NCBI GenBank assembly: GCA_014360825.1
Contig: JACIWT010000003.1
Coordinates: 124,001-188,000, forward strand
Source: Chloroflexota bacterium
GTDB taxonomy: Bacteria > Chloroflexota > Anaerolineae > UBA2200 > JACIWT01
Length of the DNA: 64,000 nucleotides
Reading direction: 5' to 3'
The notes below the pieces were generated by a model. That model was not told the origin of the DNA. It did not search any database and saw only the letters and a list, made by a program, of their open reading frames with translations. This document shows, piece after piece, positions 20,858 through 40,432 of the stretch; position 1 is the first letter of the stretch, and every line of letters begins with the position of its first letter. The position numbers and the translations under genes were made by a program.

Positions 20858-23800
20858 TTAACGGGTGTTGTTTTTCATGATAAGTGGCATGTACACCTTC
20901 AGCGCTGCCTGGAAAGTCACATAGGTGAAATTGCCACGGCCGTTCTCTGCACGGGCCCAAACCACGGCTATGTGTGGGACGACGTCGGCCCGCAAGTGTG
21001 CGATGGCAATGCCGCTTGTGGTAGTGCTGGTATAGGCGGTCGTGCCACTCTCGACCCACGTTCCGAAGTTCGTGGTGAATCCGATTCGCGTGCCGTTCTC
21101 GACGGTGTTACCCTTTTCATCTTGTACCAAGGCCGAGACCGTAGACACTGCCAGGCCGTCAGCAGGGATGTTCGGTGGATAAGCGGCCACGTCCACATAG
21201 TACGGCGGTCCGGGGATGAAATAGGCGGAGGCCGTACCGATCACGCTGTTCACAGTGGCCGTCAGGTGCACTGTCCCAGCGATGTCGCCCGAGCGCAGTG
21301 TGGCCGTGGCTACTCCTCCAGTCGTGGTTGCATCATAGAAACGGCTGCCGGTGAGGAAGAGCCCCTTATCGGTCTGGAACTGCACGGCAGTCCCATCGTC
21401 CACGGGGTTACCTGCACAGTCTTGCACTCGCGCGTTCACCGTCATGTCGTGTCCGAGGATGGGCACCGAATCTGGAGTTGTGGTTATTGTCACACTAAAG
21501 GGCACGCCGGCAATGATGTCCAGGTTTGCCGGTCCGATTTGGCCACCGGATTGCACCACTACCTGCTCCGTCTCTGGGATGTGGGGTAGGATCTCGTTGC
21601 GAGAGCGGACAGTCGTCGTTACCATACCGTTAATCGTGCCCATCTGCGTGGGCGAGAACGAGACCAAATTCTTGTTGGCGGAGAAGGTTGCTAGCGTGCC
21701 ATTTTTTACCCGGTTCAACCATTTGTCCACAATCACGGCAGAGAGGGTCGCGGTGCCCCCACAGTTGCGGATGGTGGTGGGTAGGACAGTGGAATCAATA
21801 TAGGCTGGCGGGCCGGGATCAACCGTTATTGTGACCACTTTCGTTGCCGGACCGCACGTGATAGTGATGGGAGCCAAGCCCGGCTGGACATCACTGCGGT
21901 AGGTGGCCAATGCTACTCCTCCCGCTGAAGTGGTTGTAGTGTAGATATTTGTGCCACTTTCTAAGAATGCCCCGCCTAAGCCACTCGTCCGATAGGTTAC
22001 GGTAAGGCCAGCCGGCAAGCGGTTATTGCCGCAATCTTCAACAATAGCCTGGATAGAGGCATAAGAATTCAGCCCGGTGTCGCGGACGGTGATAGTGGGC
22101 GCGTCTATGTACGTGTTGATGTGATGCGGCGGACCCTGTACCAGTGCTACGGTTGCGCTGCCGCTGGCCGCTGAGTCTGCCGCATAGACGACGACGCGCA
22201 AGAAGCCTGCGCCGAGAACACCGCCAGTGGTCAGGGTAGAAGTGGCTACCCCGCCCACGGTGGGCACGATAGACGGGTCGAAGGAACCCTGACCGCCCAT
22301 CTCGACGTTGAAGAAGATGTTGGTTCCATCAGGCACCGGGGAGCCGAACCGATCTGTGGCCGTTACGGTGACTACGCGCTGAGCACCACACAAGGGCACT
22401 GGCGAAGGCCCGGCCACGGCTACCGAGACGGTGTATGCCATCCCGGCCCGGAATGTTACCGTGGTGTCACCCATACGCCCGTTCTCCGTCGTGGCCGTGA
22501 TGATTGCCGTGCCTGGGGCCTCACCCGAGGTCAGGGCAACAATCGCATTGCCATCCATTGTCGTCGCGCTGATTGTCGTAGTGGGCGGCGGAAAGCCACC
22601 GAGCGTTGTGGTGAAGGTAACCAGCAAGCCGTCCATCACGTTATTGCGGTAGATGTCCGTTACATGTGCCCGGATGGTAGATCTCTCTCCGCCTACGGAG
22701 ATGACCTCTGGCGCTGCAGTAACTGTCACAGTGTAGGCCTCGAGTGGTAGGAATTTCACCTGCACGTCATCCACTACCCCCGCGGCGGCGATACCCCAGA
22801 CCGTGGCCGTGCCCGCCACATCTCCCGAACGCAGTGTGACAACCGCCTGCCCATCGGTCGTGGTTGCTGATGTGGTGGGATTAGTTGGGAGCCCGCCCAA
22901 TGTGGTATTGAAGTTTACTGGCGTGCCGTTGGCTACTGCATTCCCCCAGGCATCCCTGACGGTAGCCGTGATCAGGCAGTCCTGGTTGTGCACCAGTACG
23001 CCCGTGTACTGCGAAGTCAGTGTGATGGCTGCGGGCAAGCCAGGGATGACGGTGAGCGTTACACCCATTTGATTATTACCACCTACTGGGTCGTTAGTGC
23101 GTGAGCCAATACTCGCCGTGTTCGTCAGCCCCCAACTCAGGGGCCAGGGCACACTGGGATCCACCCGAGTAGTCAATGTGATCCAGCCCCGGGCACTGGG
23201 ATTTACCGTGCCCACATTCCAGACATGGTCCTGAGGAGACGCAGGTGTTGGGTATCCCACATTCGGGGTGGACGTGGAGGTCACAAAGAGCAACCCGGTG
23301 ATGGGCAATGTATCCGTCACCCGCACCCCTGTCGCTGCGGCTGGGCCAAGATTATGGTACTCCACAGTGAAGGTCACCAGTCCATTGGGCCGAACAGCAG
23401 TAGTTGGCGACAGCAGGGTCTTGGTGATTGCCGTATCGGCTCCTTGGAAAGTAATGGCCGCCGTACCGGTGACCACACCTGGCAAAGTGGTCAAGGCAGT
23501 GATGATGCGGCCGTTGGGGGCAGTAGCCCAGACTTCACCTGTACCCGGCGTGGAGGCTGCAGTCAGGAGCGTGGTGGCACGACCACCGCTGGTGGTCGTG
23601 CCGGAGCGGAATGCATCGATAAAGATCCAGCCACTTGTGCATTGCACCGTCACGGTATAGCGGCCAGAGGCGAGTGTGTTAGTGAGCACTCGCTCGACCT
23701 TGTACTCGATGGGGCCACTGGTGTTCATGTCTATAGTTGCAATGGGAGAAGGGCTCGTGTTCAGGTAGACGCTGGCTGTGCCACCCGCCACACTCTTGAG

Positions 23801-25801
23801 GTAGATCACCGAAAACGCTGTACCAGTAAACGACCAGGTAGCCGTATCCCCGACGTTGTTGGTAGCAGCATATTGGCCACCGCTAGCGCTACCATCTGGT
23901 ACAAGCGCCCACCCAGGACCGGCCAAGGTAACGCCGGGGTCGTTCTCTTCTGCATAGCCGAAGATCGTGGACCCCATTGTGCTCGTGAAGCCCACGAATG
24001 TACCATCAGGCACCAGTTGTCCTGCCCCGTCCCAAACGGTAGCGCGTAGCGTAGACAGGCTTGTGCCGTCGGCGGGGAGAGTGCTGGGATCGGCCGTCAA
24101 TTGGAGGGTGGCTGGCACACAGAGGGCCGGCTCGTAGGTCACCAGACCCAGGGCTGCTGAGTCATAATTATGCCGGATTTCATCTTCGATGTCACGCAGG
24201 TTGCAAACTCCCCAGTCGTTAATCGTGGCAGTGATATCACGGCTGTAGTTCTGCAAATACAAGGCCCGCTGGCTGCCCTGGAAGCCACGGAACCGGTTGG
24301 CCGCTGTAACACTGCCGCCAAGGATGGTAGTATGCGCACCCGTTGCAGTGGCAGGCGCCCGATACATGCGTATGCCGGTCGGTGTACCCGTCGTGGCGGC
24401 GATGAAGGTGTTGCTATACATCTTCGTGTTCTGCACGATGTTCGGAGTCACCTGGGTCATGCTGATGCCTATAGTAGCCCGATTGAAGGTGTTGTCCTCC
24501 AACGTCAAATCATAGGCCCAGTCGTAGATTAAAATGCCGGCCTCATTTCCCACCGCGCCGTTGGAACCATTGATGACGTTGTTCCGCACAACGGTCCCGG
24601 TGATGGGGTTGTCCAGGCGAATATGCGAATCATGATTTTTCAGGGAGCCGCTGGCGTACCCCAATGTATTGTTAGCGATTACAACCGGCCCGGGCACGAC
24701 GGCCGGTGGGGAAGGGTTCTCGATGTAGATGCCTACCAATTCATTTCCCGTAATCACGTTGCCAGCGCTCACGCCAATCTGGCCACTGGCTTCCTTGATG
24801 TGGATTCCATGCTGATTGAAACCGTGGATCTTGCAGTTATCAATCTTGAAACCTGTTATGTTTGGCCATGTCGAGCCGTCGAAGTTTGCGATACCGACAT
24901 CAGGGCCGGGGACAGCCCATGGATTGGCCTGTATGGTCATATTAGAGAGGGTGACATTGTTTGCTCCAATGCCGACGGCATAGCCTCCATTGACCTGTAT
25001 CACCGTCAGGTCTGGTCCGGCTCCGGTAAGAGTGATAGACTTTGTGACAGTGATGTACTCGCGGTAAGGTAGGAATGGCTCATTAGGGCCAATGTGTACC
25101 GTCCCGCCTTCCGCGACAGCCTTTAGACCGTCGGTGATGGCCGAAAATGCAGTTACACCCCATAGGTGACCGTCGTTGCCTAAGTCCGAGGCATAATTGT
25201 CATCCACCCATACTTCCAAGGGTGCGAACCATACGGCGTCGGCCACCACATTGGGAACAGGCGCGGGCTGTGCTGGTCCATCGTTGAGTTCGACGTATTG
25301 ACTAGCCGGTACACCACGATCGAAATAGTAAATTCCCAATAGTACCCAGCCCGAGTTGCCGCCGGGAGCAGGCACGAGGTTGCCGAGGTAGTCCAGTTTC
25401 TGATTCACGTACACTGTCTTCGTGCCGTATTTGTGGCGGATGGTATAGCGGGCCCGATCTGTCTGCGCGTCCTGGTTGGCCCAATAGTGCACGTATACCT
25501 TATACCAGCCCGCATCGAGGTCTGGCTTCCATTTCACGGTGTGGCCTGTGCCATCCTGAGGGGTGTAAATGCAAGCCCCTCCATAGCCTCCGCCAGGGAA
25601 ATGGCTCCAGCCAGTCGGGGCGGGAGGGAAGGGGCCAGGTGGTTCGAACCCGGGGCCACCGTCGTCAATCAGGTAGCCGGTGGAGGACGGAGCCAGCACA
25701 GAGGCCCGCTGAGCAGTGACTATATAAGCCGATCCTAAGAGAACCACCGTGGTGACAGAGGCGAGGATAAAGAGCCTGACAAATCTTGCCCGGAGAATCA
25801 T
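20858..25801 (-). CDS. Modular secreted surface protein: golvesin-like domain, beta-helix, nested Big_1, DUF11, seven Big_1 repeats
   Basis: A 1647-residue secreted protein. Approximate order: signal peptide (FVRLFILASVTTVVLLGSAY, 10-29); golvesin/Xly-like domain (38-190, WYKVYVHYWANQ); right-handed beta-helix (198-560, starting WVDDNYASD, with ITGNELVGIYIEN-like coils); a Big_1 domain beginning LTADPSTLPADG (565) into which a jelly-roll of about 115 residues is inserted (617-733, ending IDAFRSG); a DUF11 domain (790-905, VEYHNLGPAAATGVRVTDTLP); seven Big_1 repeats of about 100 residues (918-1640); and the tail VYMPLIMKNNTR. It is a smaller relative of the 3888-residue protein encoded at 28.8-40.4 kb. 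A role in cell-surface adhesion, sheath or matrix is inference. ATG 25801 has GGGGG 8 nt upstream; the frame extends 14 codons further without RBS. Confidence 0.85.
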   Translation of the reverse strand: MILRARFVRLFILASVTTVVLLGSAYIVTAQRASVLAPSSTGYLIDDGGPGFEPPGPFPPAPTGWSHFPGGGYGGACIYTPQDGTGHTVKWKPDLDAGWYKVYVHYWANQDAQTDRARYTIRHKYGTKTVYVNQKLDYLGNLVPAPGGNSGWVLLGIYYFDRGVPASQYVELNDGPAQPAPVPNVVADAVWFAPLEVWVDDNYASDLGNDGHLWGVTAFSAITDGLKAVAEGGTVHIGPNEPFLPYREYITVTKSITLTGAGPDLTVIQVNGGYAVGIGANNVTLSNMTIQANPWAVPGPDVGIANFDGSTWPNITGFKIDNCKIHGFNQHGIHIKEASGQIGVSAGNVITGNELVGIYIENPSPPAVVPGPVVIANNTLGYASGSLKNHDSHIRLDNPITGTVVRNNVINGSNGAVGNEAGILIYDWAYDLTLEDNTFNRATIGISMTQVTPNIVQNTKMYSNTFIAATTGTPTGIRMYRAPATATGAHTTILGGSVTAANRFRGFQGSQRALYLQNYSRDITATINDWGVCNLRDIEDEIRHNYDSAALGLVTYEPALCVPATLQLTADPSTLPADGTSLSTLRATVWDGAGQLVPDGTFVGFTSTMGSTIFGYAEENDPGVTLAGPGWALVPDGSASGGQYAATNNVGDTATWSFTGTAFSVIYLKSVAGGTASVYLNTSPSPIATIDMNTSGPIEYKVERVLTNTLASGRYTVTVQCTSGWIFIDAFRSGTTTSGGRATTLLTAASTPGTGEVWATAPNGRIITALTTLPGVVTGTAAITFQGADTAITKTLLSPTTAVRPNGLVTFTVEYHNLGPAAATGVRVTDTLPITGLLFVTSTSTPNVGYPTPASPQDHVWNVGTVNPSARGWITLTTRVDPSVPWPLSWGLTNTASIGSRTNDPVGGNNQMGVTLTVIPGLPAAITLTSQYTGVLVHNQDCLITATVRDAWGNAVANGTPVNFNTTLGGLPTNPTTSATTTDGQAVVTLRSGDVAGTATVWGIAAAGVVDDVQVKFLPLEAYTVTVTAAPEVISVGGERSTIRAHVTDIYRNNVMDGLLVTFTTTLGGFPPPTTTISATTMDGNAIVALTSGEAPGTAIITATTENGRMGDTTVTFRAGMAYTVSVAVAGPSPVPLCGAQRVVTVTATDRFGSPVPDGTNIFFNVEMGGQGSFDPSIVPTVGGVATSTLTTGGVLGAGFLRVVVYAADSAASGSATVALVQGPPHHINTYIDAPTITVRDTGLNSYASIQAIVEDCGNNRLPAGLTVTYRTSGLGGAFLESGTNIYTTTTSAGGVALATYRSDVQPGLAPITITCGPATKVVTITVDPGPPAYIDSTVLPTTIRNCGGTATLSAVIVDKWLNRVKNGTLATFSANKNLVSFSPTQMGTINGMVTTTVRSRNEILPHIPETEQVVVQSGGQIGPANLDIIAGVPFSVTITTTPDSVPILGHDMTVNARVQDCAGNPVDDGTAVQFQTDKGLFLTGSRFYDATTTGGVATATLRSGDIAGTVHLTATVNSVIGTASAYFIPGPPYYVDVAAYPPNIPADGLAVSTVSALVQDEKGNTVENGTRIGFTTNFGTWVESGTTAYTSTTTSGIAIAHLRADVVPHIAVVWARAENGRGNFTYVTFQAALKVYMPLIMKNNTR

Positions 25802-26096
25802 ATCATGCCCCCTTGTTGGTGTGTGTGACCAAATGTCCGGCACGCAGAAAAAACATTAGAAAGGCAAGGTTCGCTGCCTATTCTACCACATTAGACGATT
25901 GGCTTGGCGAAAAGATACGGGCTTGCTCTAAAGCGCGAAACGCAGCATCGAAAACATTATAGCGTGTAACAATTCGTGGTGTCAAACTCTGTGGGTTCTC
26001 TAATGTTGGGCTCGTCCACCAAGCGGTCTGGATAAAAACATGGTCGAGGATAGCCTTTTTAGTGAGAGGCACAACTTGCCCCTATCTTCGCACCCC
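25802..26096. other. Intergenic stretch without a supported gene
   Basis: The gap lies upstream of the leftward surface-protein gene. A 64-codon minus-strand frame (25878-26072) has no recognisable domain, RBS or homology that I can name, and I do not call it. TAGAAT on the minus strand near 25884-25879 could be a -10 box, but no matching -35 is seen. Confidence 0.3.
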
Positions 26097-26288
26097 TCAA
26101 CCACTTGTAGGCACGCAGGAATCAGCCGTCTTTCTTCCTGTTCCCCCAGTAACACCAAAGAGGCTAATGACTTTCACTACCTTGCGGCTGCCGCAGACGG
26201 GGCAGACTAGATCGGGTTTGGTGCTGGAACGCACCAGAACCTCGAATTTCTCGTTACAATCTTCACACAAGTATTCATAGATGGGCAT
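26097..26288 (-). CDS. FmdB-family zinc-ribbon regulatory protein
   Basis: This 63-residue protein starts MPIYEYLCEDCNEKFE and has a second knuckle VCPVCGSRKVVK, the CxxC-CxxC zinc ribbon of the FmdB/CxxC_CxxC_SSSS family. The C-terminal tail is Gly/Ser/Thr-rich (GVTGGTGRKTADS). The family was named for a putative regulator of formamidase/amide utilisation, but its function is generally unknown. ATG 26288 begins the conserved motif and has GGGAG upstream; 12 extra in-frame codons are ignored. It may belong to the leftward group with the NTPase, 137 bp upstream. Confidence 0.88.
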   Translation of the reverse strand: MPIYEYLCEDCNEKFEVLVRSSTKPDLVCPVCGSRKVVKVISLFGVTGGTGRKTADSCVPTSG

Positions 26289-26425
26289 CGTTTTCCACTC
26301 CCATGAAGGTTTGACTGCGCCCACGCTTATCAGAGTGCAGCACCGATTGCATGTACCCCACCAGGGTATATGATACTCTGACCCAGATTTTTGTCAAAAT
26401 GCCGGATCACTTGTCTGCGCTAAGG

Positions 26426-26965: not shown

Positions 26966-27429
26966 GGTATACGATCTCCTCCCAAAGCACCAGCAGCAAT
27001 ATGCACAGTTCCTGGTAGGCGTGCGACCAGCATTGCATCTGGCTCTATGGAAAAGGCCAATAGGTGCGTGACACACTGACAATCAGATGCACCGAATCCG
27101 GGAATGGGCTTCGTCGCGCCGGGCAGGCTACTTAAGGCCTGGGCCCACTTACATTCCAACCGCTGAGGAGACTCGGTCCACCAGATCGCACGCCACTGCG
27201 TATGTGGGCGCAGATAGTCAATGTGCCAGCGCAAGGGATTTCCCTTGCGGGCATGTCGAGCAATGCGCGCCGCCAAGCCCCCTGGTCCTCTGGCACTACC
27301 CACATAAGTGTAATAGCCTGGCTCAAGATCGAACGTGCCCAGCCCGCCCACAATTAGAGACAACTCCTTCGGCAAGTAGAGTATCAGAACATAGGTGCCA
27401 GGGCGAGGAGGTGGTGAGTGGTTTATCAC
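26962..27429 (-). CDS. DUF123 / GIY-YIG-like protein
   Basis: The 155-residue product contains GTYVLILYLPKELSLIVGGLGTFDLEPGYYTYVGSARGPGG in outline (key elements GTYVL, GYYTYVGSA, LAARIARHAR, WHIDYL). This is the pattern of the DUF123 branch of the GIY-YIG fold, which also occurs fused to endonuclease III in archaea. A nuclease or nucleic-acid role is possible but unproven. GTG 27429 overlaps the preceding femAB stop (GTGA), with GGAGG 5 nt upstream. Upstream in-frame ATGs (27462, 27450) lie within femAB and are less well supported. Confidence 0.82.
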   Translation of the reverse strand: MINHSPPPRPGTYVLILYLPKELSLIVGGLGTFDLEPGYYTYVGSARGPGGLAARIARHARKGNPLRWHIDYLRPHTQWRAIWWTESPQRLECKWAQALSSLPGATKPIPGFGASDCQCVTHLLAFSIEPDAMLVARLPGTVHIAAGALGGDRIP

Positions 27430-28472
27430 AGCCGCCTCCGCCAAGCCCATGCTTGCCGCCACAAGGCGTAAAGTGGCTTGATATACACGTAATCATACGC
27501 CCCTATGTAGCGCACGACCCGTCCTCCAAAACCGAACTTGAACCTGTAGAGTCCCCAGGGCAGGTCATCCTCGCGCTTGGCCTGGGCTGCCATGTCCTCG
27601 TACTCATAATCGGGGACGCCCCACAGGTCGTAGAATTCACAACCTTGTTCCCTGGCCCAGCGCATGGCTGTCCATTGCAAGAGATGGTTGGGCATTCGCT
27701 GGCGCTCTTCATTCGATGATCCGCCGTACATATAATATGCCTTGCGACCAAAGGCGAAGACCATCAGTGCGGCCAGTGGCCGGCCTTCGTACTCCGCAAT
27801 GAACAACTGCGCCTGGCTGCGGGGAGCGAAGAGCTCCCACACCGCCTTGTAGTAGGCCGGGCTGTGCACACTGAATCCATCTCGTTGGCCGGTGATCTCC
27901 ATCAGACGGGCGAAGTCAGCCAGGTTCGTAGCATCACCTGGCCGGACAACCACACCTTTGCGCTCGGCCAAGCGGACATTGTAGCGCGTCTTAGGTTTCA
28001 TCTGTGCCAGTATCGCCCCTTCATCAGGCCGGAGGCTCACGATCACTGTGCGCCGGGGCTGGACGGTCTCCGCGCTGGGTACAAAGCCCCTCTCGCGCCA
28101 CCAGCGATGGGCCATCTCACCCTCTTCCCAATCTGGCTCTACCTTCAGATAGATAGCACGCGAATGACGGGCCAGGCGATGGATGGCAGCGAGGAGCGCG
28201 TAAGCAATCCCATCGTCAGTGGCGAGGAAAACCGGCCCTTTGGGCACGTAAGCCACACTGAGCCCAGCCAAAGGTCGGAAGAGAACTTGGGCAGCGGCCA
28301 CCATCTGCCCGCCGGCGTGGACGGCCACGCGGCGGGGCACCCAGCCGAACCGACCCTTGAGTTCGCCCCAAGCCCAAGTCTGGAGAAGATGACCACCAGG
28401 AGCACTACGCTGAAATTCGTCCCACGAGTGTGAGGAGGTCTCGTCAATTGTAACCTTGATGGGAGGAACCAT
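27426..28472 (-). CDS. FemAB/FemX-like peptidyltransferase (peptidoglycan branch aminoacyltransferase family)
   Basis: This 348-residue protein has the double GNAT-like FemAB pattern: GGHLLQTWAWGELKGRFGW, RAIYLKVEPDW, LAQMKPKTRYNVRLAERKGV, and the late motif NHLLQWTAMRWAREQGCEFYDLWG. FemX-type enzymes add amino acids from aminoacyl-tRNA to lipid II stem peptides at the inner membrane face. With no muropeptide data, the amino acid and even the substrate are open. The gene heads a tight leftward operon (FemAB-DUF123-NTPase, 4-nt overlaps). ATG 28472 follows GGGAG/GGAGG. A TATAAT on the minus strand (28507-28502) may be the -10 box, but the -35 is poor. Confidence 0.87.
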   Translation of the reverse strand: MVPPIKVTIDETSSHSWDEFQRSAPGGHLLQTWAWGELKGRFGWVPRRVAVHAGGQMVAAAQVLFRPLAGLSVAYVPKGPVFLATDDGIAYALLAAIHRLARHSRAIYLKVEPDWEEGEMAHRWWRERGFVPSAETVQPRRTVIVSLRPDEGAILAQMKPKTRYNVRLAERKGVVVRPGDATNLADFARLMEITGQRDGFSVHSPAYYKAVWELFAPRSQAQLFIAEYEGRPLAALMVFAFGRKAYYMYGGSSNEERQRMPNHLLQWTAMRWAREQGCEFYDLWGVPDYEYEDMAAQAKREDDLPWGLYRFKFGFGGRVVRYIGAYDYVYIKPLYALWRQAWAWRRRL

Positions 28473-28616
28473 TCCTCCGTCTCCCTTAAAATATTAGGGT
28501 TATTATACCTAACGAAAGTGAAAACTGCCCATTTTCATTTGCGTATCTTTTGGGAAAGGCAAACGTCTTCACGAAAGAGAACCCTTTATTTGTACTGGAT
28601 GGCCGGTCTAGAGTCT

Positions 28617-28646
28617 TTGACACGGTACGCTTTCGTGCTGTATAAT
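28617..28646 (+). promoter_or_regulatory. Promoter of the giant surface-protein gene
   Basis: TTGACA (28617-28622) and TATAAT (28641-28646) are both consensus, spaced by 18 bp. The start would be near 28653, leaving a 5' leader of about 113 nt. Confidence 0.75.
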
Positions 28647-28683
28647 TTGTATTAAACTGAAATTAGACTGACCTCGGTACGCA

Positions 28684-28714: not shown

Positions 28715-28765
28715 GTCCTCTGTTTGCAATGCAAAAGCAGATTAGGGAGAGAGGAGACTCACGAA

Positions 28766-31700
28766 ATGAGAGCCCCAGACCACATTACCACTGGCAATCC
28801 GGTCGGCAAGCAGCGTGGCCGGTTGATTTTCCTCTCAGCAGCGATCTTTCTCATCGCTTTCATCTCCATTTTCCTTGGGCCTGCGTTTTTGTTCCAATGG
28901 AGGTCTAGCGAAGCGGCACCATCCGGTCCGGATGATGGATTACCTCATCTAGCCTCTACGTTTAGTGCCACCTCCACTGTTACGGAGGTAAACTTCCAGC
29001 AAGGGGTTTTCCCTACCGCGGGCTACTCGGGTTGCTTAGATACCTCGATTGTGGCTTGGCAAGAATGGCCTCACGACGACCTCTGGCTGCGAGCAGGCCA
29101 ACTTTCCTATTACCGACCACTCATTTACTTTGATCTCACCCCCGGCGGCATTCCCACCGGCGCCTATGTAGAGTCGGCAACGCTCTATGTATACGCCTAC
29201 ACGCGAAACATGGTCCGTGAGCTCGAGGTGGAGCCGTACTACGTAACTCGCACTTGGAGCGCACCTGATGCCACCTGGACCTATGCCACGCTCACCGATA
29301 CCTGGGGTATCGCTGGTTGTGATGATCCGACTACTGATCGTGCGCCTCATCCGAGTTCCACTACAACGTATAACACCGTCGGCACGTGGCACTCTTTTGA
29401 CGTGCGGTCTATTGTACAGCAGTGGGTGGACGACCCAACAAGCAACCATGGCATGGTCCTCGTCGCGAGGACCCCCTCGGTCATCTATTACTATTGGAGT
29501 AGCCAGTGCAATGTGGCGGAGTATCGCCCCCGCCTCCGGATTGTATATGGCGCGGCACCTCCCACCACACCTACACCCACCCCGACACCAACCAAGACGA
29601 ACACCCCGGGTCCTTCGCCCACACCAACCCGAACACCTACCGTGACGCCTACCCTGCCTGGCCCACCCGTCATCTTAGACGATGGCGACCCTGGTTATTC
29701 CCGTTCCGGAGCCTGGTTTGACGCTGTTGGCAACGGTGGATACGCCAATGACTACGATTACGAGACCGACGTACTGACTACCAATACCGCTAGCTGGCAA
29801 CCACCAGCCTCAGATCCTGTCCCGGCTGATGGGATGTACGAGATCTTTGCTCATTGGAGTGTGCACTCTGCCCGGCCTGTGAATGCGACTTATACCATCC
29901 ATTATCAGGGTGGGACGGCTACTGTCCAGGTGGACCAAACGAAAGACGCGGGCGGTAGTACCGTGCCCGACTTCACTGCATCCGGCTGGAAGAGTCTGGG
30001 TATCTATCCCCTCGCGGCAGGTACAGTCAACTATGTGGAGATTTCCAGCGTTTCTCCGGGCGACACCTGCGCTGATGCAATTCGCATTGTCCCTACCGGC
30101 TTGCCGGGCCAGCCGTACAGTATAGAAGTTGTCGCCGACCCTTCCAGCATTGTAGCCAATGGCACTGCTACTTCTACCATCCGCGCTACAGTGCGCGACC
30201 GCTTCGGCAACCCAGTCGCTAACGGCACAATGGTGGGCATTACTTGCACTGCCGGGGCCTCCGTACCCACAGCCTACGCCGAGGCCGAACTCGCCCCCGT
30301 CGTGCAATCCGGCACTTGGGTGACGGTGGCGAATGCTAGCGCCAGCGGAGGTAACTTCCTGCGGTCCAGCACGGCTGGCTCCGAACTCTCCTGGAGTTTC
30401 ACTGGCTCGGCTGTTTCACTGGTGTATGCAACATCTCCCACCGGCGGCATCGCCGATGTGATTGTAGACGGGAGTTTTGCCACCCAGATTGATATGTCCT
30501 CTGCAGCGACCAAGTGGCAAGTCGAGCGCGTGATCCGCAATAATTTGACTTTTGGTCCGCACACCATTGTGGTGCGGGTGATCAGCGGCATCGTACGAGT
30601 GGACGCCTTCCGCTCTGGGGTAATCACGTCCGGTGGTCTGGCCACCGTCAATCTTACCGCAGGCACGACGCCAGCGGTAGTGACAGTGCGTGGCACGGCG
30701 CTGGGCATTGACTACGTTGGATTGGCCCCTGCCTGGCCAATGGACGAAACCACTGTGACCACAGCAGGGCCCTTTGAGGTCTGGGTAGATGACGACTACA
30801 CTCCGGGTGGTTACAACGATGGCCACCAGTGGGGCTATGATGCCTTCAATAAAATATACGATGGCGTGACCAAAACGATCAGCACTGGCACAGTGCATGT
30901 TTTATCTGGCACCTACAACGAGAATGTGGTGGTTACCAAGACCCTGAGCATCCTGGGCGTGGGGGCCGACACAGTCATCTTAGACGGCGTCAGCGATACT
31001 GGGACGGGCTTCTACATTGATCAGGTCAGCAATGTTACTATTTCCGGCCTGACGATCAAGAACTTCAGCCGAGGCATTGATATCCACGGCACCGGGGCGA
31101 CCAACGTTTACACCATCACCATTACTAATAATATCTTCGACTCCAATGGAGTGAGTGCTGGTTCTGAGGCTATCTACGGCACCTACGTATTCAATAGCAT
31201 CCTCTGCAACAACATCATCCGTAATGGTCAGGATGGCATAGACCTGTGGCTTGCTAACAATGTGGTGATCTGCTACAACGAGATTTACAACAACAAGGGT
31301 GTTGGCGTCTGGATCGAGCGCGGCGACAACAACTCCATTGACAACAACCATATCTACAATAACCGGCACATTGGCGTGCGTATCACCAGCCCCGCCAACA
31401 ACAACGGCATTTTCAACAACCACATCCACGACCAGTACTGGGATGGCATTCATCTTGGCTCTGCCGTGGCCGGCACCCAGATCGTGAGCAACACCATCAC
31501 CAATACGAATAAGATGCAGATGGACGGAAATGGCAATGTGCCGAGCGTGGACGAGAACGACGGGGCCATCACTTTGGTGAGCACTACCAACACCAATATC
31601 CTGGACAACGTCATCCAAGGCGTATCGAATGCTGAAGGTACGAACGGCGACACTGCCGGCATCCATTTGCGCAACCCAGCCAACACGAATTGCATTATCG

Positions 31701-34700
31701 AGCGCAACTCCATCACCTATAACGCCAACCACGGGGTGTACATTCGCGCCGCCGCCGGCCGCCCGGTATTGCATCGCAACACTATCTGCGGCAACGGCAA
31801 ATTCGGGATCATAAACAACATGGCGCTCCCTGCGGTGGACGCTGAGGGTAACTGGTGGGGCCGCAACAGTCCTACCCAGGGACTTACACCACCCCGCGAT
31901 ATTTATTACGATGGCATAACCGACAGTGTGGATGAGGACCCACAAATCCGAATCACGTTGACCCGCTATCCCACCGCTATCGCTGCTGACGGTGTGTCTA
32001 CTTCTACTATCACGGCCACTGTGCGCAGTACGAGTGGCCACGACATCATTGATGGTTCGCTCGTCACCTTTGCTACCAATAGAGGGACCTTTGTTGGCGG
32101 GCCCACCGTGCCTACATTGAATGGTGTCGCCACCATTCTCTTGCGCGCGGGCACCGTTGCTGGCACTTCGTACGTGACAGGGACATTACCTTGTAACGGC
32201 ACAGCAAGCACCACAGTGAACTTCACTGCTGGCCCACCGGCAAACCTCTCTGTCGTTGCTATCCCCAGTGCGATACCTCGGGGTGGTCCGCCGGCTGGTC
32301 AAGCGGTGATCAGCGCTACCCTGAAGGACATCTATGGCAACCCCGTACCCGGGGAGGTTGTAACCTTCACGGTGGATACCACTTACGCCTACCTGGTCGG
32401 CGCGCCGCCCGTGGTGGACACGACGGATGCCCTCGGTGAAGCCACGGCTACCTTGCGCTCACTCGACCTGGTTGGAACTGCCCAGGTGACAGCGACGGCA
32501 GCCTCACTGATTGCCAATACCACGGTTGACATCACTGGCGGCCCCCCCGTTACTATCACTGTGACGGCTGATCCCACACACCTGCCAGCGAACGGCGTTG
32601 CCCAATCGCTCATCACTGCCGTGATAAGCGATGCGTGGGGCGGGCCCGTGCCCGATGGTACGATGGTTGGCTTCACCACTACGGCGGGCTCAATGATCCA
32701 CGCCTACACTGAGGCAGAGAGTGGCGAGGTGTTCAAAACCACCGGCGATTGGACCACCGCAGCCGACGCCAGCGCCAGCGGTGGACAATTCGTGTATACC
32801 GACAACCCTGGCGCTTTCGTCAGTTGGTCTTTCAGGGGCCAGGCGGTGTCCTTGAGATACGTGAAATCGCCTCTGGGCGGGGTCGCTGAAGTCTCTGTGG
32901 ACGGCGTGGTGCGCAAAACCATTGATATGTCTGCCGCCGGCGTCCAATGGTTGGAGGAGATCATTGCCTCGGACCTTTCTCCAGGCGCACACCAGATCCG
33001 AGTGCTGTGTCTAAGCGGGCGGGTTTATGCCGACGCCTTCCGCTCTGGTACCACGACCACAGACGGCGTAGCGACAACCTATTTGACGGCGGGCGTTACA
33101 CCGCTGGTTACCGCTATCGTCTGGGGGACGACGGGCATCGAAACCGGTATCATCACCGACGACGCCAGCGTGTTCTTCGAACAGTCCAGCGTCGTCTGGG
33201 TGGACGACGATTGGGTTGGACTGCCAAACGGAACAGATGTCGGGTCAGGTCGCATTATTGGGTCTAACGCTGCCGCGACCATCCAGGATGGCCTGAGCCT
33301 GGTGCAGACGGGCGGCTCGGTATTTGTGTTAGGTGGTACCTACTACGAAAGCCCGCTGATCACCAAAACCCTGAACTTGGTGGGGTTCGAGCCTGGCCAC
33401 AATGCCGTTGTGGACGGCTACAATACTCTGACCTATGGCATCCGTGTGGATCCGGGCGTGGATAACGTCCTCATCTCTGGCTTCACTATCCAGAACTTCC
33501 GGCGCGAGGCTGTCCGCGCCATCAACACAGCCGGGAATCCCGGCGAGGGTCTGCGCGTGCTGGATAATATCATCCAGAGCAACGACCGGCAGTATGGCGA
33601 CCTCACGCCGAACTGGACCAGCGCTATCTCTGTTACCTACGTGATGGGCGGCCAATTCGTGAGCAACGTCATCTCAGGCAACCAGGGTGGCCTCTACTTG
33701 CGCGAATCCAACGGCAACCTCATCCAGAGCAACCAGATTTACAACAACAACCGCTACGCCATCGAACTGGAAGTCTGTGACAACAACATCGTGGATAGCA
33801 ACGAGATCCACGATAACGAGAGTTATGGCATCCGCGTTTACGGGGCAGGTATCAGCAACACCATTTCCAGCAACATCATCCACGATGTGTATTGGGATGG
33901 CATCCGCGTGGAATCTGGAGACACCACGCGCGTGATCAGCAACACCCTTTACAATACGAATAGGCGCATCAACAATGGCGAGGGTCTGAGCAGTGGACCC
34001 AATTTAGGTGCGATTGTGCTACGGGACAGCACAGATAGCCTGGTACAAGACAACTGGATCTACAACACCCAAGACGCCGAGGCGACGATTTACTCGGGCG
34101 GCATCGTCCTGGACGGGAATAATAGCGGCATTACTATCTTGTACAACTTGCTGCATGACAATACTCACAGCGGCATCCGCATCCTAAACCCTGGCTGGAC
34201 GGGCACCGTCCCCGAGATCCACGGCAATAGCATCTATGGCAATGCCGATTATGGCATCGCCAACTTGCAGCCAGGCACGCCTGTGGACGCAGAGTGTAAC
34301 TGGTGGGGCCGCAATACACCCACCGTGGGCGCAGTGCCGCCACGCGATATCTATAATGGAGTAGGGGCCAACGTGGACTACAACCCGCGCCTCCAGATCG
34401 TTCTCACTGCCAACCCCACTTCTATCCCAGTGGGCGGGTTGAGCAGTTCCGAAATCAGGGCTATTGTTCAGTGTACCAGCGGTGGGACGCTTTATCACAT
34501 CCGCAACGGCACACCAATCACCTTTACCACGAATCTTGGCGCCATCACTGGCCCTGTGACCACGACGATGACCGATGGTATTGCCACAACGGTCCTGCAC
34601 TCGGGTCTCACCGCAGGCACAGCAACAGTAACGGGTTGCATCCCGCCACTACCGACTGGATGCAACACGGTGGATGTAGAGTTCGTCCCCGGGCCTCCGT

Positions 34701-37700
34701 TCAGCATCAGCATGGTGGCCGTGCCAAATACCATTCCGACGGGACTTGCTACTTCCATAGTTACTGCTACGGTCCGCGACCAATTGGGTAACCTGATTGA
34801 TGGCGCGACCATCTACTTCTCGGTGAATCCACCCACTTTGGGCACGGTCAATCCAGTCTCGAGCGTCACGGCAGCGGGCGTGGCTACGACCACTTTCCGC
34901 TCTGCGACCACGCCCGGGGTGGCCACTGTCAGTGCCAATTGGGGTTACGTGACCGGCTCGGTGCCTATCACGATCACGGCAGGCGCACCTTACACCATCA
35001 CTCTCGTGGCCTATCCCACCAGCATTCCCGCCGACGGGGTCTCCACAGCAGCCCTGACGGCTACTGTGGTGGACCTCTTTGGCAATCCGGTGCCAGATTG
35101 CACACTGGTGGGCTTCACCACGACGCTTGGCTATCTGCCCTTCACTTATACCGAAGAGTCGGCGCTCAGTCCGGCAGCCTGGGTGGGCACGTGGACCACG
35201 GCCTCGGACCCCGCCTTCAGTGGCGGCTCCATTCGGTATACATCCGATAACACCGCCGCTGTCACCTGGCAGTTCACCGGCACTGCTGTCTCGCTCATCC
35301 ACAGCACGGCGTCGAATGGCGGAGAAGCGCGGGCTTATGTGGATGGCCTAGGTCCCTATGTCATGAACATGTATTCGGCCAGCACTCAGAACCGCGTGGA
35401 AAGCCAAATCCCCATTTGTGTGCCGTATGGGGTGCATAACGTGCTTATCGAAGCCCAGTTGGACCCTGGTGAGTTCATCTGGGTGGACGCTTTCCGTTCT
35501 GGGCTGGGCACAATCAACGGCATGGCTGTTGCAGCGCTCAGATCCACCACCACCCCTGGCACTGCTACCGTTTATGCCACTGCAGCCGGCAATCCCGCGC
35601 TGCAGACCTCCACGACTGTGGAATTCGCTCAGCCGTGCACCGTCTGGGTGGATGACAATTGGGTTGGGACGCCCATTGGCACGGATTTGGGCGGCGGTAA
35701 GGTCTACGGCTACAGCGCCTTCGCCACAATTCAGGCTGGCGTGGATGCCGTGTGCGATGGCGGGACTGTTTACGTCCTCGACGGCCTTTACAGTGAGCAG
35801 GTCAGTATCACCACCAAGAGTTTGAATCTCTTGGGTGCTGGTAGCGCTACGACCACCATCCAAGGGCCGGCGGGCATCACTGCCACCGCTCAGATCGGGA
35901 CGCGAGGCATCTACGTTTATCGGCGCGATAACGTGACCATCTCCGGCTTCACTATTCGTCGCTTCGATTACGGCATCTACTTGCACGGTACGGCAATAAA
36001 CAATGTCGTCGGTGCGATCATACAGGATTGCGTCTTGGAAGACAACGATGCCCATGGTTCGGGCGTCCCGAACAACGCCAGTGCTATCTTCGGGCAGTAT
36101 GTGACCTCCAGCCTGCTACGAAACCTGACCATTCGACGCGGTCAGGCCGGCATTCAACTGGAAAACTCCAGTTGGAACGACATCTCGAGCAACCTGATCT
36201 ACAACAACAATCAGTACGGGATTATGTTGTACAACGGTCAGGGCAACACCTTCAATAACAACGACATCTACGATATGCGCGAAGGTGGCATCTACAATGT
36301 CGGTAGCACCGACTCCAACACGATCATGAACAACCGCATCCACGACACGTCTTGGGATGGCATCCATATCGGTACCCTTGCCACCAATGCTCGCGTCGTA
36401 GGTAACACAGTGTACAACACCAACCTGAGTTACCTGAACGGTGAGGGAGTTGCTGCCGATGATGCTGCTCCAGTGCCTCGGCGGAGAGCGAACCGCGGTG
36501 GTATCGTCCTGTGGAGCACGATGACCACCACAGTCGAGTATAACACCGTCTACGGCGTCTCGAATGCCGGGCTTCAGTTGCCCAATTCCGCTGGCATCCT
36601 GCTCGCCGGCCCGAATCCCGGCTCGATGGTGCGCTATAACGTCAGCCGCAATAACACCAACCACGGCATCTGGCTCTCCACTGATGCGGTGCCCGGTACA
36701 AACCGGCCGGAGTTCCACGGCAACACCATCTGCGGCAACGGCAAGTTCGGCTTCATCAACACAGGGGCCAATACTGCGGACGCCACGGGCAACTGGTGGG
36801 GACGCAACACACCTACCACTGGATTGACGCCGCCACGCGACATCTACTCCTCATCCGTGCTCTGGGATCCGCCCATTCGCATCACATTGACTCGCTCGCC
36901 AACGAGTATGACAGCCGATGGTGTGTCCACGGCCGTCGTGACTGCCACGGGGACCAGTGGCACGTATAATATCCTGAATGGCACATTATTCACTTTCAGC
37001 ACCGACATCTATTCTACACTGATCACCCCGTCTATCGTGCCTTCGGCGAATGGCGTGGCCACGGCCACTATCCGGGCTGGTACAGTGGTGCCGCCTGCTC
37101 CCAATCGCACCTATATCACCGTCACCACCGAGCCATGCAGTTACACGGATTCAACGCATGTGACCTTACGGCCCGGCCCACCGTACACCATTACGTTGCA
37201 GGCCTCGCCAGTTTCCATCCCGATCCTGGATGGCCCGAGTTACATCACAGCCACAGTAACCGACCGTTACGGCAATCTGGTTGCCGATGGTCTCTGGACA
37301 CTGAACATCAGCACCGATCTCGGTAACTTCGACGCCCCGTTAGGGCCAACTAACGTTACCCGTGCTGTCGTCGGTGGGCAGGCCTACGTCCAGTTGTATT
37401 CCGCTGACATCTGTGGCGTGGCCCATGTGCAGGCGAATAGCAATGAAGTGCCCGGCGTGAGCGGCAGTGTCAATGTTGGCATCATAGGTGGACCTCCTGC
37501 TTCGGTGGGTGTCGTGGCCAGTCCTCCAGTGTTACCGGCCGACGCTCTCTCCACTTCCACCATCTACGCTACCGTTGTAGCCACGGGCACAGGTGGGTGC
37601 CCGGTGGAGGATGGCACCTTCGTTGGCTTTGACAATCTTGGCGGGCTGGGCAGTATCCCGTACGACTTTGTGGAAGCGGAGTTTGCTCCTGTTCTGCAGT

Positions 37701-40432
37701 CTGGCAACTGGATTACGGGTACGAATGCGAACGCCAGTGGGGGCATGTTCCTGCAAACGGACGAGCCCGGTGCCTCCTTGACCTGGCAGTTCTACGGCAA
37801 AGCAATCGCGGTCAAGTATAGACGCGGCACTGCTGGCGGCTTGGCCAACGTCTACGTGGATGGCCTCTTCATCAAGCAGATTGATATGTCGCTGGGCTGG
37901 ACAGAGTGGCAAACTGAGCAGGTCATCGCGAATAACCTAACCGAGGGTGTCGCCCACACGATCCAGGTTTCCTGCCTGAGCGGACGGGTGTGGGTGGATG
38001 CATTCCACTCTGGCTCAACGACCCAAGCGGGCGTAGCGACTTGTATCCTCACCGCGCACGACGACCTAGGCGAGACGACTATCCGTGCCACGGTTGGTCC
38101 GTTGACGACGCCGGTTACTTACACAGCGTTCAGCGATGTAGTGATACAGTTCCGTCGCTCGCGTCTGAGCATCACCAAGTCGGTCGTACCCACTGTGGCG
38201 CACCCGAGTGAGATCGTAACCTTCACGTTATACTACACCAACACGAACACGGGGATCGGAACAGATGCCACTGGCGCAGCCACCAATGCCACCATCGTGG
38301 ACACGTTGCCGCCCGGGCTGGTCTACGTGAGTTCCACTTCTTCGCCTGATATCGGCAGTCCGACGGGTTCTAACCCATATTCCTGGAGCGCGGGCACCCT
38401 CGCACCCGGTGGGAACGGCTGGCTCAGGATACAGGCGCTGGTAACCACAACCGTTGGCTGGGGCCAGAGCACCATCTTGACCAACACGGCCACTATCACC
38501 ACGACCACGCGTGATAACGACCTGGCCAACAATACCACGGCTATCACCCTTGAAGTGAAGCCCGGCCCGCCGCACCAACTGTTGCTCACCGCCGACCCGC
38601 CAAGCATCCCGGTGGGCGGAGGCACGTCGAATATCCAAGCTACGGTTACCGATCAGTGGGGCAACCCAGTATTGAACGGCACACCGGTTACTTTCACCAC
38701 TGACCTGGGGGGCTTCCCAGTGGTGCAGAGCATCACAGGAGCAACGACGAACGGCGTAGTCAACCAGACCCTGACCTCAGGCCCGATCGCGGGTACGGCC
38801 CACGTTGCGGCTGAGGTAAACGGCATCACTGATACCGTGAACGTACAGTTCACACCATTGTCGCCTTTCACCATAACAGTGGCGGCTTACCCAAGCACCA
38901 TCGCCGTTGGCGGAGAGATGGCCTACATCGTCGCCACGGTAGTGGATCAATATGGCAACCGCGTCGCCGATGGCTGGTCGGTCTCATTCGAGGCCTCGAT
39001 GGGATCTCTATCTCCTAACATCACAACCACGGTAGGCGGCGATGCTCTCACCCAGTTGACATCGGGTGATGTCGCCGGCACGGCTTACATTACCGCCACC
39101 TGCAACGGGCGCATCGGCACAACCACCGTGCAGTTTGTGCCTGCTGAAGAGCGGCAGGTGACATTGCAGGCGGATCCACCCATCGTTCGTGTCGGCCTTG
39201 GTCAAGCGGATGGTTCCAGACTGATCGCCACTGTACGCGACCTCTTCGGGAACCTTGTCGGTGGGCGGGTCGTGACTTTCACTACATCGCTGGGCACTTT
39301 CCCCAACGGAATGAATACGTGGGTGGGCATGACCAGCAATGCCTCTGGGAGCCCAGATTTTGGAAAAGCCATCGTGCGATTGCAGTCCATTACTGTGGGG
39401 ACGGCTATCGTGAATGCCGAGACCGAATATGGCTCTGCCTCCACGCAAGTCAGGTTTATACCTGGTCCCACTGAACACATCAACCTAACCATTCACCCGC
39501 GTATCATCCCCATCTGTGGTGGCACAGGCATTATCACAGCCACAGTACAAGACATGTTCGGCAATGCTGTGCAAGATGGCACGTTGGTCGGCTTCTCCAT
39601 CTTCAGCATCGGCACAGTGGACCCAGGGTCGGTGCCCACGGTCAATGGTGTGGTCACGGCAGTGGTGCGTTCGGAGTCGCAGACGGGCTGGGCAACAGTG
39701 CAGGCGGAAGTGCGCGAGGGCGGCGCTTACGAAATCCAGCATGCCGACGTGTACTTCATAGTTGGCAAGCCGGATCATATCGTCATCTTCCGCGAGCCGT
39801 GGGAGATCCAGGTGGGAGGCCAGGTATCGCGTATCACAGCATTGGTGCAAGACTGCGGCAACAACAGCGTGGCGGATGGGACAGTGGTAACATTCACCAC
39901 GAGCCTGGGCACATTTGGTAGTGGCACCACGGTTACGGATACTACGCGGGCTGGGCTCTCGAGTGTCTATCTGACCTCGGGGAATAGACCGGGCACAGCA
40001 ACCATCTCAGTTCAAGCCGATTCGCAGACCAACTATGCCACTGTGGACTTCATCCCCGGTCCGCCGTACACGATCACGTTGAGTGCTAGTCCGCGCTCTA
40101 TCCCTGCCGATGGCGTAGCAACTTCCACCATTGTGGCTGTCCTGCAGGATTACTATGGCAACCCAGTAGCCGATGATACTGTAGTACGCTTCAACGCATC
40201 ACTCGGTACGTTCAACGGTATCAACCGCGCCGAAGAGTACTCCAGAAATGGGCAGGCCTCTGCGGTGCTAAAATCCGGCACGACACCAGGCCGGGCCTAC
40301 GTAAACTGCAACTCTGGGGCTGCCTACGCTCAAACTTACGTGGACTTCTATTATGCGCCCACACCCACACCGACACCCGAATGGGCCTACTACTTGCGGA
40401 TGCCCATCATCATCAAGAAGTTTGCTCGTTAG
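28766..40432 (+). CDS. Giant modular surface protein (3888 residues) with triplicated Big_1/jelly-roll/beta-helix unit
   Basis: One uninterrupted frame. Approximate order: membrane or signal segment (19-45); DNRLRE-type domain (70-265); Thr-Pro linker; golvesin-like domain (299-447); then three copies of a unit made of Big_1 with a nested jelly-roll, a beta-helix starting WVDDD/WVDDN and ending NWWGRN, and two Big_1 domains. Helices lie at about 672-1052, 1475-1868 and 2292-2700. A fourth nested Big_1, a DUF11 domain (3132-3265), six Big_1 repeats, a Pro-Thr spacer and the tail YYLRMPIIIKKFAR follow. The jelly-rolls end in VDAFRSG, ADAFRSG, VDAFRSG and VDAFHSG. ATG 28766 has GAGAGGAG upstream. 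A structural, adhesive or polysaccharide-binding envelope role is inferred; no catalytic motif was recognised, although beta-helices can be lyases. Confidence 0.88.
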   Translation: MRAPDHITTGNPVGKQRGRLIFLSAAIFLIAFISIFLGPAFLFQWRSSEAAPSGPDDGLPHLASTFSATSTVTEVNFQQGVFPTAGYSGCLDTSIVAWQEWPHDDLWLRAGQLSYYRPLIYFDLTPGGIPTGAYVESATLYVYAYTRNMVRELEVEPYYVTRTWSAPDATWTYATLTDTWGIAGCDDPTTDRAPHPSSTTTYNTVGTWHSFDVRSIVQQWVDDPTSNHGMVLVARTPSVIYYYWSSQCNVAEYRPRLRIVYGAAPPTTPTPTPTPTKTNTPGPSPTPTRTPTVTPTLPGPPVILDDGDPGYSRSGAWFDAVGNGGYANDYDYETDVLTTNTASWQPPASDPVPADGMYEIFAHWSVHSARPVNATYTIHYQGGTATVQVDQTKDAGGSTVPDFTASGWKSLGIYPLAAGTVNYVEISSVSPGDTCADAIRIVPTGLPGQPYSIEVVADPSSIVANGTATSTIRATVRDRFGNPVANGTMVGITCTAGASVPTAYAEAELAPVVQSGTWVTVANASASGGNFLRSSTAGSELSWSFTGSAVSLVYATSPTGGIADVIVDGSFATQIDMSSAATKWQVERVIRNNLTFGPHTIVVRVISGIVRVDAFRSGVITSGGLATVNLTAGTTPAVVTVRGTALGIDYVGLAPAWPMDETTVTTAGPFEVWVDDDYTPGGYNDGHQWGYDAFNKIYDGVTKTISTGTVHVLSGTYNENVVVTKTLSILGVGADTVILDGVSDTGTGFYIDQVSNVTISGLTIKNFSRGIDIHGTGATNVYTITITNNIFDSNGVSAGSEAIYGTYVFNSILCNNIIRNGQDGIDLWLANNVVICYNEIYNNKGVGVWIERGDNNSIDNNHIYNNRHIGVRITSPANNNGIFNNHIHDQYWDGIHLGSAVAGTQIVSNTITNTNKMQMDGNGNVPSVDENDGAITLVSTTNTNILDNVIQGVSNAEGTNGDTAGIHLRNPANTNCIIERNSITYNANHGVYIRAAAGRPVLHRNTICGNGKFGIINNMALPAVDAEGNWWGRNSPTQGLTPPRDIYYDGITDSVDEDPQIRITLTRYPTAIAADGVSTSTITATVRSTSGHDIIDGSLVTFATNRGTFVGGPTVPTLNGVATILLRAGTVAGTSYVTGTLPCNGTASTTVNFTAGPPANLSVVAIPSAIPRGGPPAGQAVISATLKDIYGNPVPGEVVTFTVDTTYAYLVGAPPVVDTTDALGEATATLRSLDLVGTAQVTATAASLIANTTVDITGGPPVTITVTADPTHLPANGVAQSLITAVISDAWGGPVPDGTMVGFTTTAGSMIHAYTEAESGEVFKTTGDWTTAADASASGGQFVYTDNPGAFVSWSFRGQAVSLRYVKSPLGGVAEVSVDGVVRKTIDMSAAGVQWLEEIIASDLSPGAHQIRVLCLSGRVYADAFRSGTTTTDGVATTYLTAGVTPLVTAIVWGTTGIETGIITDDASVFFEQSSVVWVDDDWVGLPNGTDVGSGRIIGSNAAATIQDGLSLVQTGGSVFVLGGTYYESPLITKTLNLVGFEPGHNAVVDGYNTLTYGIRVDPGVDNVLISGFTIQNFRREAVRAINTAGNPGEGLRVLDNIIQSNDRQYGDLTPNWTSAISVTYVMGGQFVSNVISGNQGGLYLRESNGNLIQSNQIYNNNRYAIELEVCDNNIVDSNEIHDNESYGIRVYGAGISNTISSNIIHDVYWDGIRVESGDTTRVISNTLYNTNRRINNGEGLSSGPNLGAIVLRDSTDSLVQDNWIYNTQDAEATIYSGGIVLDGNNSGITILYNLLHDNTHSGIRILNPGWTGTVPEIHGNSIYGNADYGIANLQPGTPVDAECNWWGRNTPTVGAVPPRDIYNGVGANVDYNPRLQIVLTANPTSIPVGGLSSSEIRAIVQCTSGGTLYHIRNGTPITFTTNLGAITGPVTTTMTDGIATTVLHSGLTAGTATVTGCIPPLPTGCNTVDVEFVPGPPFSISMVAVPNTIPTGLATSIVTATVRDQLGNLIDGATIYFSVNPPTLGTVNPVSSVTAAGVATTTFRSATTPGVATVSANWGYVTGSVPITITAGAPYTITLVAYPTSIPADGVSTAALTATVVDLFGNPVPDCTLVGFTTTLGYLPFTYTEESALSPAAWVGTWTTASDPAFSGGSIRYTSDNTAAVTWQFTGTAVSLIHSTASNGGEARAYVDGLGPYVMNMYSASTQNRVESQIPICVPYGVHNVLIEAQLDPGEFIWVDAFRSGLGTINGMAVAALRSTTTPGTATVYATAAGNPALQTSTTVEFAQPCTVWVDDNWVGTPIGTDLGGGKVYGYSAFATIQAGVDAVCDGGTVYVLDGLYSEQVSITTKSLNLLGAGSATTTIQGPAGITATAQIGTRGIYVYRRDNVTISGFTIRRFDYGIYLHGTAINNVVGAIIQDCVLEDNDAHGSGVPNNASAIFGQYVTSSLLRNLTIRRGQAGIQLENSSWNDISSNLIYNNNQYGIMLYNGQGNTFNNNDIYDMREGGIYNVGSTDSNTIMNNRIHDTSWDGIHIGTLATNARVVGNTVYNTNLSYLNGEGVAADDAAPVPRRRANRGGIVLWSTMTTTVEYNTVYGVSNAGLQLPNSAGILLAGPNPGSMVRYNVSRNNTNHGIWLSTDAVPGTNRPEFHGNTICGNGKFGFINTGANTADATGNWWGRNTPTTGLTPPRDIYSSSVLWDPPIRITLTRSPTSMTADGVSTAVVTATGTSGTYNILNGTLFTFSTDIYSTLITPSIVPSANGVATATIRAGTVVPPAPNRTYITVTTEPCSYTDSTHVTLRPGPPYTITLQASPVSIPILDGPSYITATVTDRYGNLVADGLWTLNISTDLGNFDAPLGPTNVTRAVVGGQAYVQLYSADICGVAHVQANSNEVPGVSGSVNVGIIGGPPASVGVVASPPVLPADALSTSTIYATVVATGTGGCPVEDGTFVGFDNLGGLGSIPYDFVEAEFAPVLQSGNWITGTNANASGGMFLQTDEPGASLTWQFYGKAIAVKYRRGTAGGLANVYVDGLFIKQIDMSLGWTEWQTEQVIANNLTEGVAHTIQVSCLSGRVWVDAFHSGSTTQAGVATCILTAHDDLGETTIRATVGPLTTPVTYTAFSDVVIQFRRSRLSITKSVVPTVAHPSEIVTFTLYYTNTNTGIGTDATGAATNATIVDTLPPGLVYVSSTSSPDIGSPTGSNPYSWSAGTLAPGGNGWLRIQALVTTTVGWGQSTILTNTATITTTTRDNDLANNTTAITLEVKPGPPHQLLLTADPPSIPVGGGTSNIQATVTDQWGNPVLNGTPVTFTTDLGGFPVVQSITGATTNGVVNQTLTSGPIAGTAHVAAEVNGITDTVNVQFTPLSPFTITVAAYPSTIAVGGEMAYIVATVVDQYGNRVADGWSVSFEASMGSLSPNITTTVGGDALTQLTSGDVAGTAYITATCNGRIGTTTVQFVPAEERQVTLQADPPIVRVGLGQADGSRLIATVRDLFGNLVGGRVVTFTTSLGTFPNGMNTWVGMTSNASGSPDFGKAIVRLQSITVGTAIVNAETEYGSASTQVRFIPGPTEHINLTIHPRIIPICGGTGIITATVQDMFGNAVQDGTLVGFSIFSIGTVDPGSVPTVNGVVTAVVRSESQTGWATVQAEVREGGAYEIQHADVYFIVGKPDHIVIFREPWEIQVGGQVSRITALVQDCGNNSVADGTVVTFTTSLGTFGSGTTVTDTTRAGLSSVYLTSGNRPGTATISVQADSQTNYATVDFIPGPPYTITLSASPRSIPADGVATSTIVAVLQDYYGNPVADDTVVRFNASLGTFNGINRAEEYSRNGQASAVLKSGTTPGRAYVNCNSGAAYAQTYVDFYYAPTPTPTPEWAYYLRMPIIIKKFAR

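Follow-up and report, generated by a model that had tools for sequence, protein, structure and literature searches.

The analysed stretch of DNA (the window) is 64,000 nt long and comes from a Chloroflexota bacterium (Anaerolineae-type). Two giant ORFs were read from it (Table 1). Both are real, and the lengths of 1647 and 3888 residues given in the original prediction were reproduced from an in-frame ATG, at residue 15 in each case. Pfam Big_1 (PF02369, cut-off 34.9 bits) matched the large protein P0001 with 229.5 bits and P0002 with 116.2 bits. Most of the nested Big_1 units are separated in the chain by beta-helices. On the best reading, each protein is exported and forms a long stalk of Big_1 domains and beta-helices, with four side arms on the large protein and one on the small. 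The two genes lie on opposite strands in the window, whereas in relatives from the order they are direct neighbours with a common orientation. A FemAB-family ORF (27426-28472, -) is located between them. Two overlapping subtilase (S8) ORFs are found at 11775-17491 (+), the first of which ends C-terminally in an ordinary Big_1 domain.

Table 1. Coordinates of the two giant ORFs, the parts of the five nested units and the internal control domain
Feature	Position	Strand	Remarks
Large ORF	28724..40432	+	3902 aa from TTG; 3888 from ATG at codon 15
Large protein, layout			signal-like N-terminus, DNRLRE domain, Golvesin_C, 4 nested Big_1 units, beta-helix segments
Large protein, layout (continued)			DUF11, 12 uninterrupted Big_1, C-terminal tail YYLRMPIIIKKFAR
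Small ORF	20858..25843	-	exported; 1661 aa from GTG; 1647 from ATG at residue 15
Small protein, layout			Golvesin_C-like, beta-helix, 1 nested Big_1 unit, DUF11, 7 uninterrupted Big_1, tail LKVYMPLIMKNNTR
Unit 1 Big_1 N-part	30113..30274	+	profile 2-52; 52.4 bits
Unit 1 insert, CBM-like beta-sandwich	30275..30619	+	YAEAE...DAFRSG
Unit 1 Big_1 C-part	30620..30778	+	profile 59-84; weakest, 12.2 bits; spliced host 66.5 bits
Uninterrupted Big_1 directly before unit 2	32234..32545	+	internal control in structure model
Unit 2 Big_1 N-part	32546..32704	+	52.0 bits; strands A-C in AlphaFold2 model
Unit 2 insert, CBM-like beta-sandwich	32705..33049	+	CE2_N match at residues 1360-1430
Unit 2 Big_1 C-part	33050..33187	+	strands E-G; model confidence low at end
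Unit 3 Big_1 N-part	34988..35146	+	58.6 bits; AlphaFold2 model
Unit 3 insert, CBM-like beta-sandwich	35147..35503	+	AlphaFold2 model
Unit 3 Big_1 C-part	35504..35635	+	strands E-G; 30.4 bits
Unit 4 Big_1 N-part	37496..37666	+	26.6 bits
Unit 4 insert, CBM-like beta-sandwich	37667..38014	+	ends DAFHSG
Unit 4 Big_1 C-part	38015..38152	+	16.8 bits; spliced host 47.4 bits
Unit 5 Big_1 N-part	23957..24115	-	41.1 bits
Unit 5 insert, CBM-like beta-sandwich	23600..23956	-	
Unit 5 Big_1 C-part	23444..23599	-	21.0 bits; spliced host 61.3 bits

Five Big_1 domains were said to be interrupted by about 115-120 residues ending in DAFRSG or DAFHSG. This observation was confirmed: the insert is 115-119 residues long in all five hosts, and the mapped inserts agree in both ORFs with the coordinates first given for them. 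The motif DAF[RH]SG occurs exactly five times, compared with 0 on average in 200 shuffles. The Y-x-E-x-E/D start ascribed to the inserts is looser than claimed, as unit 3 begins with YTEES and unit 5 with YAEEN.

A Big_1 profile was built solely from the 19 uninterrupted domains of both proteins, independently of the motif used in the original prediction. The five N-parts matched profile positions 2-51 (26.6-58.6 bits) and the five C-parts matched at about 58-96 (12.2-30.4 bits). The inserts alone scored 0.5-4.6 bits. After in-silico excision of the insert, the hosts scored 47.4, 61.3, 66.5, 69.3 and 88.6 bits, within the leave-one-out range of the uninterrupted domains (42.4-104.5 bits). Every wrongly ordered join of the parts scored below the correct splice. 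Ten related genomes contributed 39 further nested units with the same insertion point; in these, N-parts end mostly at profile positions 51-57 and C-parts start mostly at 56-59. Insertion each time at the same place in Big_1, as had been claimed, is thus upheld by agreeing part boundaries here and in the ten relatives. Within both proteins the inserts are just 30-55% identical to one another, so the nesting is an old, maintained arrangement and not a recent tandem copy.

Structure models were calculated with AlphaFold2. For unit 3, an alignment of 44 nested units was used, and the model had a mean pLDDT of 96.5, a pTM of 0.88 and all residues at or above 70. Strands were predicted at residues 4-10, 13-15, 21-29 and 41-46 before the insert and at 180-186, 192-200 and 207-215 after it. 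The second model (pLDDT 91.6, pTM 0.75) comprised an uninterrupted Big_1 domain, as a control, followed by nested unit 2. The control strands were 4-10, 13-15, 23-31, 42-47, 52-54, 60-63, 69-76, 81-89 and 92-101. In unit 2, strands 107-113, 116-118, 124-132 and 144-149 precede the insert (residues 158-272), and strands 279-285, 293-300 and 308-317 follow it. Strands A, A', B, C and E, F, G are alike in the two domains, and the insert replaces the region of residues 52-63 of the control. It is therefore modelled where an uninterrupted domain has its C-D loop and its edge strands. Because the strand order of unit 2 parallels that of the control, the residues after DAFRSG are predicted to supply Big_1 strands E, F and G. 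Pairing of strands between the two Big_1 halves may be inferred from strand order, model confidence and sequence match. As modelled, the nested Big_1 is a complete Ig-like sandwich, with strands A-C before the insert and E-G after it.

A succession of a truncated Big_1, a CBM-like domain and a separate small domain was the arrangement that the original prediction had set against nesting. It is strongly disfavoured and hardly credible. HMMER does report the two halves as separate matches, and the C-part of unit 1 taken alone is the weakest of the five. Against it, the C-part has only about 44-53 residues, its three strands match E, F and G of the control, that of unit 3 is modelled at a pLDDT above 90, splicing restores the full Big_1 score and the junction keeps one position throughout ten related genomes. 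Separate sequential domains were not what the AlphaFold2 models gave. The structure prediction of a single unit, proposed as the check, was confident and placed the missing Big_1 strands after DAFRSG. The domain-in-domain architecture of the five units is well supported by sequence comparison and by the predicted structures.

The inserts had been described as carbohydrate-binding-like jelly-rolls, and this was borne out by Pfam, PDB sequence and Foldseek matches to CE2_N, CBM6, CBM35 and CBM36. Pfam CE2_N was matched in the whole large protein P0001 (5.9e-10, 39.6 bits, cut-off 27.9). The unit 2 insert alone reached 19.1 bits, under the Pfam cut-off, which makes the insert at least a divergent CE2_N subfamily. 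Insert-family members taken alone matched CE2_N weakly at E up to 1 in 41 of 51 cases (best 2.5e-08), and a few matched CBM_6 (best 2.4e-06) and CBM_35. When an insert profile was compared with PDB sequences, the best relatives were CBM35-bearing glucanotransferases and CE2 esterases, headed by the CBM35 of cycloisomaltooligosaccharide glucanotransferase (3wnl, 3wnk; E 0.001). Matches to designed 'Bagel' proteins and de novo trefoils were judged to be due to chance. Foldseek retrieved CBM35, CBM36, CBM6 and CE2 structures for the insert (7ehg, 1w0n, 7ay3, 2wz8, 2w3j; TMt 0.60-0.69), and Yersinia InvE/InvD and intimin for the Big_1 host. No match to the whole unit was present among the PDB or viral-prediction Foldseek matches listed (best TMq 0.45). 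CE2_N (PF17996) and the CBM6/CBM35/CBM36 modules are thus the best sequence family and fold for the insert. In CE2 enzymes, however, the domain precedes the esterase, whereas here it lies within a Big_1 loop. The CBM35 of cycloisomaltooligosaccharide glucanotransferase is also inserted in another domain, but its host is a catalytic barrel and not an Ig domain.

The most conserved insert residues are W70, W95 and D168, and also E57, G99 and H151. The E-x-E at the start of the insert and the D at its end are conserved; residues of this kind are the usual calcium ligands. Key residues and full length are kept in all 44 nested units. Free-standing copies with the same start and end were found at the C-terminus of ORFs of about 550-680 residues that have GH5 or GH39-like matches and come from this genome (L056) or from relatives (L053, L058, L060). 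Since it shares start and end with these copies, each nested copy is a whole domain bounded by its natural ends. Members of the insert family also stand free and in tandem in a 3067-aa ORF with FG-GAP/transglutaminase domains (L055) and in a 931-aa ORF with SBBP/DUF7948 domains (L054).

Sixty relatives were searched for nested units. Among the six other genomes of the order, five gave full-length matches, as did five further genomes of the class; nesting is kept across several of its families. Across the phylum, 301 genomes were scanned with a strict cut-off and only ten candidates scored per genome, a design in which distant cases can be missed; one other genome with a full-length unit was found (G042), which was already among the ten related genomes. 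The original prediction had called for the insertion point to be sought in other phyla. A scan of 84,980 species' genomes seeded with one conserved Big_1 peptide, in which distant cases can be missed, gave three loci, all Chloroflexota and all from three of the order members already counted. A viral scan with a single sequence gave no relative, and a plasmid search gave just one partial, ordinary Big_1 match, in Stenotrophomonas. An exact DNA pattern for DAFRSG gave no match in the own genome; the chosen codons were too specific.

Nested units number five to six per genome. Relatives of the same order carry five units plus one, compared with four plus one here, the large ORF of the order relatives (L043-L047) having a fifth nested unit that is absent from the present large protein. 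No orthologue with an empty site was found among the fetched relatives, which add a unit and never show the same unit without its insert. This insert family was the only one seen in the Big_1 loop in these relatives. Partial Big_1 matches without a jelly-roll were set aside as continuous Big_1 domains with divergent C-termini, or as domains cut by the end of a stretch. On a Big_1 tree (100 columns, poorly resolved), insert-bearing hosts cluster, with 7 changes compared with 22.9 after shuffling. Host and insert distances correlate (Mantel r 0.62, to which shared orthology contributes), and nested and free-standing inserts are largely separate on the insert tree (3 changes compared with 9.4). 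Host clustering and the host-insert correlation are in keeping with a small number of insertions, after which whole units were copied. The inserts of units 1 and 4 are mutually closest (55% identity, SH-aLRT 93), which suggests copying or conversion within the large protein after the split from related order members.

The same clustering and correlation, by which the units look copied whole, would also be expected if the repeat chain had simply been copied together and the nesting were an old frozen accident without functional consequence. This seems very improbable, as key residues and full length have been kept in 44 units despite the low identity within one genome, and the arrangement persists in several families of the class.

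For RTX adhesins, the projection of ligand-binding domains from split Ig-like domains has been published (PMC10865825, PMC12077191). The design also appears in a 2024 Proteins paper, as cited in these two articles. The published pairs are V. cholerae FrhA SBD-UKD, A. hydrophila AhLap and M. primoryensis MpIBP; their structures come from modelling and in part from experiment, and fucose binding has been proven for some of the domains held out in this way (PMC10865825, PMC12077191). As in the present proteins, an Ig-like domain discontinuous in sequence carries the inserted domain, a whole sugar-binding-type beta-sandwich emerges with both ends together, and the protein is very long and repetitive with Ig-like extenders. 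In the RTX adhesins, however, insertion follows the first beta-strand, as in the FrhA UKD (12 residues) and the AhLap RTX-like domain (PMC10865825, PMC12077191), whereas here it occurs after strand C, about 54 residues in. RTX adhesins have one set of different domains near the C-terminus, whereas several copies of one insert family are found here along the chain. The host here is moreover a Big_1 domain (invasin family), and the proteins come from a different phylum. The RTX nonapeptide GGxGxDx[LIVFYW] was absent from both nested proteins, and their C-terminus is a YMPLIMKN-type tail, not one of type I secretion. They resemble split-domain adhesins yet are not RTX adhesins, because they have no RTX repeats and a different C-terminal tail. 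The Big_1/invasin-intimin group (PF02369, PF09134; InvE 5n40, InvD 5ldy, invasin 1cwv) shares the sequence family and fold of the host, but the invasin structures align without a comparable insert. The lectin-like D3 of intimin is reported to be a terminal domain (PMC7718877).

No direct precedent for a Big_1 with an inserted domain, for such Chloroflexota adhesins or for a CBM nested in an Ig domain was found in the open-licence literature. The suggestion of an undescribed architecture therefore stands for the Big_1/CBM pairing and the insertion position but not for the general split-Ig design, which is published for RTX adhesins. The split-domain principle is already known; the present proteins differ in their Big_1 host, the insertion after strand C, the lack of RTX repeats and the five to six copies per genome. 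There is about an even chance that Chloroflexota evolved the split-Ig presentation of glycan binders independently, with a different Ig family and loop and in serial use, as a case of a convergent general rule.

We consider it probable that the split Big_1 domains hold out glycan-binding, CBM-like arms and that the proteins serve at the surface as an adhesin or scaffold with glycan-binding units in series. The first part of Big_1 to be laid down would be strands A, A', B and C. The chain would then exit through the C-D loop, fold a complete CBM6/35/36-type beta-sandwich (CE2_N-like) and return to complete strands E, F and G. Big_1 would stay in line as a stalk segment and the CBM-like domain would be held out sideways, with both termini towards the stalk and the opposite face exposed. 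Such lateral presentation of the insert is the most likely mechanism. The inserts would bind glycans and both proteins would serve in adhesion, the most likely job being multivalent binding of extracellular or cell-surface polysaccharide, for adhesion or aggregation. With four and one arms, beta-helix, Golvesin_C and DNRLRE, the two proteins resemble an adhesin or scaffold that binds polysaccharide multivalently.

The insert of the split Big_1 could instead be purely structural, a spacer, a stabilizer or a protein-protein (self-assembly) contact without glycan binding. The units do recur at regular places between beta-helix blocks, and all six conserved residues named above could be core or structural-calcium residues. 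We regard this as unlikely, since the families and folds closest to the insert have to do with carbohydrates, glycoside-hydrolase-like proteins bear free-standing copies as appendages and the domains presented by the split Ig domains of the RTX adhesins studied include confirmed sugar binders.

If Chloroflexota did arrive at this presentation independently, it would be a general rule by which ligand-binding domains can be located in giant surface proteins. The split-domain rule drawn from RTX adhesins extends to another phylum, Ig family and insertion loop. The inserts are predicted to be glycan binders held away from the stalk. Ordinary annotation misses split domains, as Pfam yields broken Big_1 pieces and leaves the inserts below cut-off. 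Recognition of the units gives correct construct boundaries for proteins of uncultured bacteria and points to their probable ligand-binding domains.

A C-terminal tail of the form (Y/F)-(L/M)-P-(L/I/V)-(I/V)-x-K was noted at 40391-40432 (+), 20858-20899 (-) and 17440-17491 (+). Both nested proteins end in this tail, as do the adjacent S8 peptidase ORF and most of the complete relatives, and it may serve to sort or anchor exported proteins of Chloroflexota. Tails of the same form are present at the orthologue ends in L043, L044, L045, L046, L047, L048 and L052, and in a Big_1 ORF in L059.
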